Source of the DNA: an uncultured Oscillospiraceae bacterium
Lineage (GTDB): Bacteria; Bacillota; Clostridia; Oscillospirales; Oscillospiraceae
Reading direction: 5' to 3'
DNA length: 32,336 bases
Assembly: GCA_949841465.1 (NCBI GenBank)
Contig: CATKZW010000036.1
Location: forward strand, 1 to 32,336
Positions 15,185 to 29,420 of this stretch are shown piece by piece. The first letter of the stretch is position 1; each line of letters opens with the position of its first letter. A program made the translations under genes and the position numbers. Under the pieces are notes generated by a model, which did not search any database, had not been told where the DNA came from, and saw only the letters and a list, made by a program, of their open reading frames with translations.

Positions 15185-15403
15185 ATGTGTTGTGGTAACA
15201 ATGGTGGTTTCGGCGGGGGCTGCTGGTGGATCATCATCCTCATCCTTCTGATTTGCTGCTGCTGCGGCGGTGGCGGGAACAGCTGGGGCGGCAACAATTG
15301 CTGCTGTTGCTGCTGTGGCGGCAATAACTGCGGCTGCGGCAACAACTGCGGCTGCGGCTGTGGCTGCAACAACAACTGCGGCTGCAACGACGGCTGCTGC
15401 TGA
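15185..15403 (+). CDS. 72-residue Cys/Gly/Asn-rich small protein
   Basis: A tiny protein with 23 cysteines in 72 residues and little besides Gly, Asn and Cys. Residues 1-13 are Gly/Cys-rich. Residues 14-23 (WWIIILILLI) are strongly hydrophobic, and the rest is Cys runs (CCCC, CCCCCC) and CGC/NNC repeats. GAGGTGA (15171-15177) is well placed before ATG 15185, and base use is consistent with a true gene. The short hydrophobic core with Gly/Cys flanks loosely resembles small sporulation proteins of the YjcZ type; coat or cell-surface cross-linking or metal binding are guesses. A small hairpin (GCTT/AAGC with CCCC/GGGG, 15404-15424) and another at 15461-15482 follow. Confidence 0.7.
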   Translation: MCCGNNGGFGGGCWWIIILILLICCCCGGGGNSWGGNNCCCCCCGGNNCGCGNNCGCGCGCNNNCGCNDGCC

Positions 15404-25986: not shown

Positions 25987-26325
25987 ATGAACGACAATCA
26001 GAATACAATTGCTGAACTGAAAGAAAAAATCCTTCATTTTAACGAGGCAAGAGACTGGACAAAGTGGCATAACGCCCTGCACCTTGCCATCAGCATCAAT
26101 TTGGAGGCGTCCGAGCTGTTGGAGATTTTCCAGTGGCTCGGCAAGGCCGAGGCGGATGAAGCGGCACGGGCAGCCGACCGGGAGCACTTTTTAGAGGAGC
26201 TGGCCGACGTCATGATCTACTGTATCGAGCTGGCCACCGCGTATGACGTGGATATCGCCGCCGCCATTGAGGACAAGATGAGGAAAAACGCCATAAAGCA
26301 CCCGGCAAGCCAGCCGCAGACATAG
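25987..26325 (+). CDS. MazG-like nucleotide pyrophosphohydrolase
   Basis: A 112-residue all-alpha NTP pyrophosphatase resembling the RS21-C6/dCTPase (iMazG) branch, which hydrolyses non-canonical or excess dNTPs to monophosphates. Metal-binding motifs are visible: Glu40 and Glu43 in NLEASELLEIFQW, and Glu71 and Asp74 in FLEELADVMIYCIELA. GGAGGGAA lies just before ATG 25987; the frame upstream to 25939 overlaps the terminator and is rejected. No toxin or phage partner is adjacent. It may be transcribed by readthrough from the EF-G-like gene, as no separate promoter is clear. Confidence 0.88.
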   Translation: MNDNQNTIAELKEKILHFNEARDWTKWHNALHLAISINLEASELLEIFQWLGKAEADEAARAADREHFLEELADVMIYCIELATAYDVDIAAAIEDKMRKNAIKHPASQPQT

Positions 26326-26388
26326 GTCCTCCCATCATCGGGCCTGCGGGAACTGCCAATCGTCTATAAGGGGTTCAAAAAATTTTTC

Positions 26389-26417
26389 TGTACACCGGCC
26401 AAAAGCTGTGGTAGAAT
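26389..26417 (+). promoter_or_regulatory. extended -10 promoter of queT
   Basis: TGTACA (26389-26394), 17 bases, TAGAAT (26412-26417) preceded by TGG. Transcription would start near 26424, exactly at the first hairpin of the structured leader. Confidence 0.7.
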
Positions 26418-26423
26418 ACCTGC

Positions 26424-26546
26424 GACCGACCTCCACTTCGGTCCAAACGGCGGGCAGAGAGCCGCGGGCGGGAAAGCGCGTTCCCGCCCGGAAGGGACGC
26501 CTGCCGCTGTGCCAATGCGCTGGCACTCTAAATATAAATTGGAGGT
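26424..26546 (+). ncRNA. structured queT leader, candidate preQ1-type riboswitch
   Basis: From the predicted start, hairpin A is GACCGA (26424-26429) with TCGGTC (26438-26443). A long arm follows: GCGGGCAG at 26450-26457 with CTGCCGC at 26501-26507, enclosing CGGGCGGGAA (26465-26474) with TTCCCGCCCG (26481-26490). Hairpin C is GTGCCA-ATGCGC-TGGCAC (26509-26526). The loop of hairpin A contains ACCTCCA (26429-26435), the exact complement of TGGAGGT (26540-26546), the queT ribosome binding site. That makes an SD-sequestering pseudoknot, the architecture used by preQ1-II and preQ1-III riboswitches. PreQ1-III is known in Ruminococcaceae upstream of queT. I cannot match the class consensus from memory. 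Confidence 0.6.
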
Positions 26547-26553
26547 TTTTGTG

Positions 26554-27084
26554 ATGCGCAAGTTTTCTGTCCGCGACCTGACTCTTGCCGCCATGGTGGC
26601 GGCGCTGTACACTGTGATGGGCTATTTCGCCAACATCTTTGGCCTGGATTTCGGTGTGGTCCAGTTCCGTTTTGCCGAAGCCCTTACGGTGCTGCCCTTT
26701 TTATTCCCCGCCTCCGCGCCGGGGCTGGTAGTGGGGTGCTTCCTCACCAACCTGCTCTCCCCCTACGGCCCGCTGGACTGGCTGTTCGGGACGCTGGCCA
26801 CGGCCATCGCCGCCTACCTCACCATGAAAATGCCCAAATGGTACTTGGCGGCGCTGCCCCCGGTCATTGTCAACGCCCTTATCCTCTCCCCCATGTGGGC
26901 TTGGACGGATATTGGAGCGATTACCCCCGCTTTTTGGGTGGCCTGCGGCTGGAACGCGGTTACGTTCATCCCCGCCGAGGCGCTGGTCTGCTATGTGCTT
27001 GGAACGCTTCTGCTGAAGCTGCTGCCCAAAGTCAGCGCGCTACGGCCCGCTATGCGCCAGACGGCGCAGGCCCCCTCAGTTTGA
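26554..27084 (+). CDS. queT: QueT-family queuosine precursor transporter
   Basis: A 176-residue integral membrane protein of the QueT family (PF06177), the substrate-binding S component of an ECF importer for queuosine precursors. About five to six hydrophobic helices are visible, with LTLAAMVAALYTVMGYFA at the start and the family-typical GVVQFRFAEALTVLPFLFP, GCFLTNLLSPYGPLDWLFGTLATAIAA and WVACGWNAVTFIPAEAL. GGAGG lies 8 bases before ATG 26554; the longer frame from ATG 26509 runs through the leader hairpins and is rejected. The shared ECF energising module is not in this window. Translation is probably gated by the leader at 26424-26546. Confidence 0.93.
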   Translation: MRKFSVRDLTLAAMVAALYTVMGYFANIFGLDFGVVQFRFAEALTVLPFLFPASAPGLVVGCFLTNLLSPYGPLDWLFGTLATAIAAYLTMKMPKWYLAALPPVIVNALILSPMWAWTDIGAITPAFWVACGWNAVTFIPAEALVCYVLGTLLLKLLPKVSALRPAMRQTAQAPSV

Positions 27085-28588: not shown

Positions 28589-28721
28589 TCCGGACGCCTT
28601 CGGCATCCCTGGGAGCGTCATTGGGCCCGTGGCCCAACGACCGCTCCGGACGCCTTCGGCGTCCCTGGGAACGTCATTGGGCCTGCGCCCCAACGACCGC
28701 TCCGGACGCCTTCGGCGTCCC
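28589..28721. repeat. tandem 56-bp palindromic repeats (2.4 copies)
   Basis: Units at 28589-28644 and 28645-28700 plus a 21-bp third start at 28701-28721. Each unit holds two palindromes: GGACGCC-TTC-GG(C)(A/G)TCC and GTCATTGGGCC...CCCAACGAC. The array lies between the divergent MocR and ECF genes, upstream of the promoter region. The single C-to-A-type change in the first arm of unit 1 leaves a G-T wobble only in - strand RNA. It resembles REP/BIME-type extragenic palindromes. Confidence 0.85.
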
Positions 28722-28782: not shown

Positions 28783-28829
28783 AACACCAAGACGAGGGGC
28801 CGTCAAGGCCCCGGAAGGAGTTGGAACAG

Positions 28830-29420
28830 ATGAATCAATCCAAAAACAGGAGGGCCGTCCTGATGATCTGCATGGTGGCCATGATGGCGGCGCTGGTGGC
28901 CGTGGGGTCCAACGTGCCGAATATCCAGATTCCCTCGCCCCTGGGCACCAACCGGTTTCACCTGGGCAACGTGATGTGCGCCCTGTCCGGCCTGCTGCTG
29001 GGGCCTTGGTGGGGCGGGCTGGCCTCCGGACTGGGCTCCGCCCTCTACGACCTGCTGATGGACCCCACCCGGATCACGGACACCCCGATCACCTTTGTCA
29101 CCAAGGGCCTGTACGGCGTGGTGGCGGGCGCGGTGTACTTCAAGGCGTTCAAGGGGAAGAGCAATTACTGGTCTGAACTGACGGCCAGCGCGGCGGCGGC
29201 GGCGGCCTATATCGTGATCTATCTGGGCAAGAGCTTCTTTTACAACGGCCTGCTGCTCCAGGGGCTGAGCGCCGACGCGGCATGGCTGGCAGTGCTGGGC
29301 CGGGCGCCGTCCTCCCTGTTCAACGGCATCGTGGCAGTGATCTTTGCCCCTGTTCTCGGCATGGCGCTTCACAAGGCCATGAAAGCGGCCCACCTGGAAC
29401 AGCTGACGGCCACCGGCTAA
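28830..29420 (+). CDS. ECF transporter S component
   Basis: A 196-residue membrane protein with about six helices, the vitamin-binding subunit of an energy-coupling-factor importer. Helix 1 (LMICMVAMMAALVAVGS) is followed by the family-typical FHLGNVMCALSGLLLGPW and GGLASGLGSALYDLLMDP, then FVTKGLYGVVAGAVYF and C-terminal helices. GGAAGGAG precedes ATG 28830 by about 10 bases. The divergent MocR/PdxR-type regulator suggests a pyridoxine-like (PdxU-type) or amine-containing substrate, but specificity cannot be read from sequence. The EcfA/EcfT module is not in the window. Confidence 0.85.
   Translation: MNQSKNRRAVLMICMVAMMAALVAVGSNVPNIQIPSPLGTNRFHLGNVMCALSGLLLGPWWGGLASGLGSALYDLLMDPTRITDTPITFVTKGLYGVVAGAVYFKAFKGKSNYWSELTASAAAAAAYIVIYLGKSFFYNGLLLQGLSADAAWLAVLGRAPSSLFNGIVAVIFAPVLGMALHKAMKAAHLEQLTATG

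Follow-up and report, generated by a model that had tools for sequence, protein, structure and literature searches.

Upstream of queT, the gene for a queuosine precursor transporter, lies a conserved RNA. We take it as a candidate OFF switch that responds to preQ1 at the level of translation, with class I ancestry and a new domain in loop L3. We put the probability of this reading at roughly two in three. In the proposed mechanism, the transcript would begin with hairpin P1, whose pyrimidine-rich loop would pair with the Shine-Dalgarno (SD) sequence to give the pseudoknot PK1 and block ribosome entry. An abundant supply of an imported queuosine precursor, most likely preQ1, would most likely turn queT translation off. 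The ancestor would have been a class I preQ1 pseudoknot in the style of type III whose L3 gained a kissing-loop domain, and the class I contact features would then have changed within the genus of the organism studied here, an uncultured Oscillospiraceae bacterium. We refer to the whole stretch of its DNA that was analyzed, 32,336 nucleotides, as the window.

The gene at 26554-27081 encodes QueT by its match to PF06177 (E 5.4e-37). Its leader is 122 nt long (26424-26545) and starts just past a promoter-like -10 box (Table 1); among 133 distinct leaders, 130 have TANNNT 4-9 nt before P1. In DNA letters P1 reads GACCGA-CCTCCACT-TCGGTC (26424-26443). A preliminary description of this DNA had noticed, correctly, that ACCTCCA (26429-26435) and the queT SD, TGGAGGT (26540-26546), are exact reverse complements. 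It had also placed ACCTCCA in the loop of the first hairpin; strictly, CCTCCA is looped, because the A at 26429 pairs within the P1 stem. The GC-rich stems that it saw in between are P2/P3 (26448-26506) and P4 (26509-26526). It had overlooked the kissing loop between P3 and P4 as well as the conserved internal loop, and it did not name class I, whose type III style offers the closest core. The leader's fold is equaled or bettered by 3 of 200 dinucleotide shuffles. A minimum-energy prediction limited to nested pairs forms the loop-SD helix and sacrifices P1; the program excludes pseudoknots, and one is needed to have both. At gathering level, Rfam finds tRNA alone in the whole window. A MazG-like gene (PF12643, 25984-26322) ends about 100 bases upstream of the leader. 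Elsewhere in the window, a tandem repeat with a 56-base unit in 2.4 copies (28589-28721), which includes GGACGCCTTCGGCGTCC, precedes a gene for an ECF transporter S-component (28821-29417), and 15253-15402 holds short tandem repeats whose periods are 18, 30, and 45 bases.

Table 1. Features of queT and its leader, in window positions.
Feature	Position	Strand	Basis or remark
Promoter-like TGTACA-17-TAGAAT, TG before -10	26389..26417	+	Sequence; transcription probably starts near 26424
P1 hairpin GACCGA/UCGGUC, loop CCUCCACU	26424..26443	+	Sequence; fourth pair in relatives AU, UG, UA, CG, or GC
Anti-SD ACCUCCA, 5' strand of PK1	26429..26435	+	Complementarity; in the genus 99.4% of cells paired, 5/6 pairs invariant
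Joint CAAA 3' of P1	26444..26447	+	Comparison of long leaders
P2 (26448-26455 with 26499-26506), encloses P3	26448..26506	+	Covariation, fold
Conserved internal loop, 5' side, AGAGAGCCG	26456..26464	+	GCCG invariant in 28 alignment rows
P3 hairpin, apical loop AGCGCG	26465..26490	+	Both-side changes in 5/7 counted pairs
Kissing loop, P3 side, GCGCG	26476..26480	+	Loop-pair permutation test, covariation
Conserved internal loop, 3' side, GAAGGGAC	26491..26498	+	GGWAGGRAC in 28/28 genus leaders
P4 hairpin GUGCCA/UGGCAC	26509..26526	+	Covariation, fold
Kissing loop, P4 side, UGCGC	26516..26520	+	96.4% of cells paired; 0/2000 permutations as good
UCUAAA between P4 and SD	26527..26532	+	Invariant in 28 alignment rows
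Shine-Dalgarno UGGAGGU, 3' strand of PK1	26540..26546	+	Complementarity to P1 loop
queT, queuosine precursor transporter	26554..27084	+	PF06177, 127.7 bits

Comparison of related sequences backs P1 to P4, the kissing loop, the internal loop, and a strict link to queT. A leader with a loop-SD pseudoknot of the preQ1 riboswitch kind had been proposed 5' of queT, and this is supported across the genus: 42 genomes contain 29 full-length queT genes, and the leader is upstream of all 29. QueT is matched in 30 of the 42, and in 29 the match is strong and covers the whole model; the thirtieth match (G015, 38 bits) lies inside an 840-aa frame. Model R1, built from 28 distinct genus leaders, matches the same 29 genomes at a single place each and nowhere else in the 42; since it was built from these leaders, what is informative is that no other place matches. 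RNAalifold, unaided, recovers P1-P4 from the 28 leaders, with both-side changes in 11 of 28 pairs. When the pseudoknot and kissing pairs are included, 99.2% of cells in the genus alignment pair. Covariation in the stems of queT relatives, suggested earlier as a check, is present as compensatory changes, with double changes at 13 pairs. The covariation score is 0.194 versus 0.108 for shuffles and at most 0.062 for slid structures; none of the tests takes account of relatedness, which can raise values such as 0.194. A measure of further standard pair types did not exceed shuffles in the genus alignment (177/500) or in the test on relatives (329/500).

PK1 itself is almost without covariation in the genus and shows a few consistent changes in relatives. 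Since SD sequences are constant, PK1 can covary little, and the parallel check suggested for ACCTCCA/TGGAGGT, whose bases hardly vary, says little. Loop CTCCA and SD GGAGG are invariant in the 28 distinct genus leaders; the end positions vary, and the U of UGGAGG is missing in 5. Across leaders, the complementarity that an H-type pseudoknot of loop and SD would need is retained with little variation in its bases, and in leader L140 the loop and SD are altered in concert (CCCA with UGGG). The match could be due to chance, as a pyrimidine-rich loop easily fits an SD and the constant SD leaves PK1 little room to covary. However, the match is kept in 28 of 28 genus leaders, relatives occur in 20 of 106 genera, and loop and SD change together in L140, so coincidence is a very improbable explanation.

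The kissing loop has its own record of change. Between the apical loops of P3 and P4 there are complementary runs of 4 to 7 in all 38 distinct loop pairs. The mean run is 5.71 versus 4.68 when loops are exchanged between sequences, and the duplex energy is -9.4 versus -6.9 kcal/mol for swapped loops; none of 2000 permutations matches either value, with the mis-cut loops of L007 and L077 both kept in the test. Concerted changes at kissing pairs include GCGUG/CACGC, UGUACC/GGUACA, UGUGCC/GGCACA, and GCGUCA/UGACGC.

Beyond the genus, R1 matches at least 46 of 300 family genomes, in at least 20 of 106 genera, and its 43 matches outside the genus lie immediately 5' of queT in every case (27 by coordinates, 16 by HMM). 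A second model, R2, derives from 33 short forms found in other genera. It finds the window leader (37.7 bits, E 1.5e-5). Among 394 order genomes it matches at least 25, including two from a different family; QueT is next at all 19 loci first found by this order-wide search. Because R1 and R2 searches of more than 40 genomes scored few candidates per genome, these counts are lower bounds. A pattern scan of one genome per species across 84,980 species returned 82 stretches, 79 with QueT directly downstream and three that end before any downstream gene could show. Flavonifractor, Pseudoflavonifractor, Oscillibacter, Dysosmobacter, Candidatus Evtepia, and many MAGs are among them. At least 150 QueT places were listed in the family, and 123 of those listed have no R1 match. 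R2 finds 37 of the 123 at E < 5e-4 (14/40 and 23/83), and 26 look preQ1-I-like (8/40 by eye, 18/83 by pattern). By the tests used, 60 of the 123 show neither the R2 motif nor a preQ1-I look-alike; at least 8 of these 60 resemble the plain core described below by eye, L291 and L293 included. Two further loci, L259 (the L153 place) and L258 (the L313 place), combine the TTCGTTCGG joint with a P4-like hairpin and the tail, but the stretch that was matched shows no clear P1 hairpin. We found no report of this queT leader RNA in the literature searched, which covered few subscription papers; a term search of the main text of PMC11109978 and PMC8632094 found no mention of preQ1, queuosine, or queT.

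The preliminary description had likened the leader to preQ1-II/III riboswitches and considered it a possible member of preQ1-III or a divergent variant. An SD pseudoknot, the linkage to queT, and the occurrence of preQ1-III in the same order speak for a canonical riboswitch of one of these classes, but membership in either is almost certainly wrong and already refuted at the sequence level. With E-values up to 10 allowed, none of the Rfam preQ1 models of any class, RF01054 (preQ1-II) and RF02680 (preQ1-III) among them, matches window positions 26300-26700 or any of 20 relatives. RF02680 also has no match in 300 family genomes, with few candidates scored in each. Of 384 order genomes it does match 6; these all belong to a different family, and their RNAs differ in sequence. 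R1 and R2 reach no better than E 0.8 on six preQ1-III loci. The topology differs as well: in preQ1-III the P4 stem-loop carries the anti-SD and a distinct pseudoknot lies on the 5' side, and here the anti-SD is in the first hairpin. Covariance models and topology together rule out membership in either class. The leader adds a large variant to the preQ1-type leaders of Oscillospiraceae, one that by the searches run is not in Rfam 15. A loop motif UGGCGG is shared by P4 of some type B leaders (L170, L189, L046) and the loop of the 3' hairpin in preQ1-III (L263-L267).

For class I, RF00522 (preQ1-I) finds nothing in the window, the 20 relatives, or 10 loci with plain or one-hairpin forms. However, the E. 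coli yhhQ leader (L352, 2676-2711), which fits the published type III riboswitch, is itself unmatched by any Rfam family, RF00522 included, at E up to 10, so the RF00522 result says nothing on type III. Among the look-alikes picked by eye, 7 of 8 match RF00522 below gathering (17-30 bits) at E 0.0038 to 5.6, values that make most of them weak individually. Gathering-level annotation would miss these queT leaders (L121, L129, L130, L133, L142, L154, and L156).

Leaders in the family form a series: a plain core, a core with one hairpin in L3, a core with P2 and P4, and the full kissing-loop domain. We infer that they arose in this order. The plain form L335 reads GGCUGG-UUUCCACAC-CCAGCC followed by UAAUAAAAAAUGGGAGG, and L277, L291, and L293 are similar; R2 gives the four E-values of 1.1e-5, 4.3e-4, 0.0076, and 0.054, respectively. 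These four loci are candidates for plain type-III-style preQ1-I pseudoknots in Oscillospiraceae. A single hairpin lies within L3 in L257, L261, L262, L285, L304, and L305. P2 with P4 makes up short types A and B, and P2 with P3, P4, and the kissing loop makes up the long forms. The core of the relatives (TTTCCACAC and AAAAAATGG) resembles that of the E. coli yhhQ leader, with loop TTCCCTCAC and tail AAAAAGG; this E. coli stretch is 36 nt and, from its length and place, is probably the published 36-mer. The class I type III core, as described in PMC11625349 and PMC10622847, agrees with that of the relatives. In the published description, the type III linker that runs from P1 to the A-run varies in both length and sequence, and this is the linker that the inserted domain occupies. 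Living relatives span a pseudoknot of about 40 nt to a kissing-loop RNA of 122 nt on one gene. A size series on the same gene makes riboswitch domain growth, and the possible loss or transfer of a ligand site, testable stepwise.

How much of the class I core survives in the genus? We scored four features: a U at the start of the loop, a C at its end, a G-C pair closing P1, and at least four A before the SD. All four are present in 24 of 26 independent short leaders and 18 of 24 independent long leaders from outside the genus; the 54 short leaders known from the pattern scan alone carry the loop by construction and were kept separate from these counts. Among the 28 genus leaders only L007 has all four. 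The loop starts with U in 26/26 short, 22/24 non-genus long, and 7/28 genus leaders and ends with C in 24/26, 21/24, and 3/28, respectively. The A-run, with one U allowed between, is found in 25/26, 19/24, and 1/28, and the G-C closing pair in 5/28 genus leaders. The window loop, CCUCCACU, does not show the UU after the 5' strand of P1 and AC before its 3' strand that define type III, and AAAUU precedes GGAGG where type III has 4-5 A directly before the SD GGA. We therefore do not class the window leader as type III, although it may work like one.

The fading of these contact features in most genus leaders could mean that ligand binding was lost and that the leader is now a constitutive brake on queT translation. 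PK1 would fit a brake in that all six of its pairs in the window are Watson-Crick, whereas in short forms the outermost pair is U-G in 33/33 and the next in 23/33. However, the same 28 genus leaders retain the internal loop and UCUAAA, and the joint after P1 is CAA, A or C, then C in 28/28 genus and 24/25 other long leaders. (The long-form label itself demands GCCG and a GG..AGG..A stretch, so we cite conservation of the internal loop from the unfiltered genus alignment.) Internal loop and joints invariant or nearly so in 28/28, together with 96.4% of kissing cells paired, are more than a brake needs, and we regard that explanation as unlikely.

A different idea concerns the place of the ligand site. 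The pocket at the junction of P1 and the pseudoknot may have decayed in the genus and the kissing-loop domain may now sense preQ1, a relocation of the ligand site to which we give modest odds. Proposed parts of such a site, put forward just as tentatively, are GCCG opposite GGAAGGRAC in the internal loop and the joints CAAMC and CUCUAAA. If it were true, a new preQ1 aptamer class would have grown inside an older one and then replaced it, and intermediates with both sites would survive in sister genera.

What does the leader sense? Genes of the queuosine pathway point to preQ1. QueA matches all 42 genus genomes, and QueF matches two (G001 and G002). QueC has some match in 20, above the cut-off in 16, and spanning the model in 3 (G001, G002, and G039). 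The 29 genomes with the RNA and queT comprise 29 with QueA, one with full-length QueC, and none with QueF; G001 and G002 are without queT and without the RNA. QueA requires preQ1-tRNA. With QueA present, QueF absent, and full-length QueC in a single genome, the precursor imported by QueT is probably preQ1. The RNA is absent from 13 genus genomes, and 11 of these likewise have QueA but neither full-length QueC nor QueF (many assemblies are incomplete), so other import routes may exist.

A change of ligand is a further reading. The final loop base is U in 24 of the 28 genus leaders, the window among them, C in 3, and A in 1, and C-to-U type changes alter specificity in purine riboswitches. If the ligand-reading base went from C to U, the window RNA could sense a compound that resembles adenine or diaminopurine; it might also sense a protein. 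A base that varies inside the genus is, however, ill-suited to set a new specificity, the gene remains queT, and the genomes resemble those of preQ1 salvagers; a ligand other than preQ1 seems to us quite improbable. The faded class I features and the scant covariation of PK1 do weigh against a preQ1 switch, as does the U that ends the window loop: in E. coli, a C15U mutant reportedly has the weakest preQ1 recognition (PMC10622847).

A preQ1 OFF switch is still the best explanation. PMC12519234 describes a preQ1-I riboswitch of Listeria queT that represses translation, and this precedent, together with an SD that lies within PK1, suggests translational OFF control here. PK1 would be the switching element, with preQ1 as the ligand that favors it, and the inserted domain would either stabilize the fold or join in binding. 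For the window RNA itself, the ligand, the direction of control, and the binding site are all inferred.

The leader shares features with several known systems. Like preQ1-II (RF01054), it precedes queT, would hide its SD in an anti-SD/SD pseudoknot helix, and has an extra P4 hairpin off the main stack, but it is unmatched by that model, and its domain is set apart by a kissing loop and by a conserved internal loop. With preQ1-III (RF02680) it shares the queT leader position, a length of about 100 nt, two pseudoknots, and the bacterial order; the placement of the anti-SD, the sequence, and the unmatched model set the two apart. The preQ1-I look-alikes in other genera of the family, below gathering for RF00522, also lie 5' of queT with a hairpin, an A-rich tail, and an SD, but their loop is UUCGNRACCWUCC and most were seen without an inserted domain. 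The closest likeness is to preQ1-I type III, as in E. coli yhhQ. Its pyrimidine-rich loop UU...AC, the G-C pair closing P1, the A-run directly before the SD GG, the SD pairing, and the precursor transporter downstream all recur in the relatives. The long forms differ in that L3 carries the P2-P4 domain of about 80 nt, and most contact features are lost in the window's genus. Moreover, type III is reported nearly only from Pseudomonadota.
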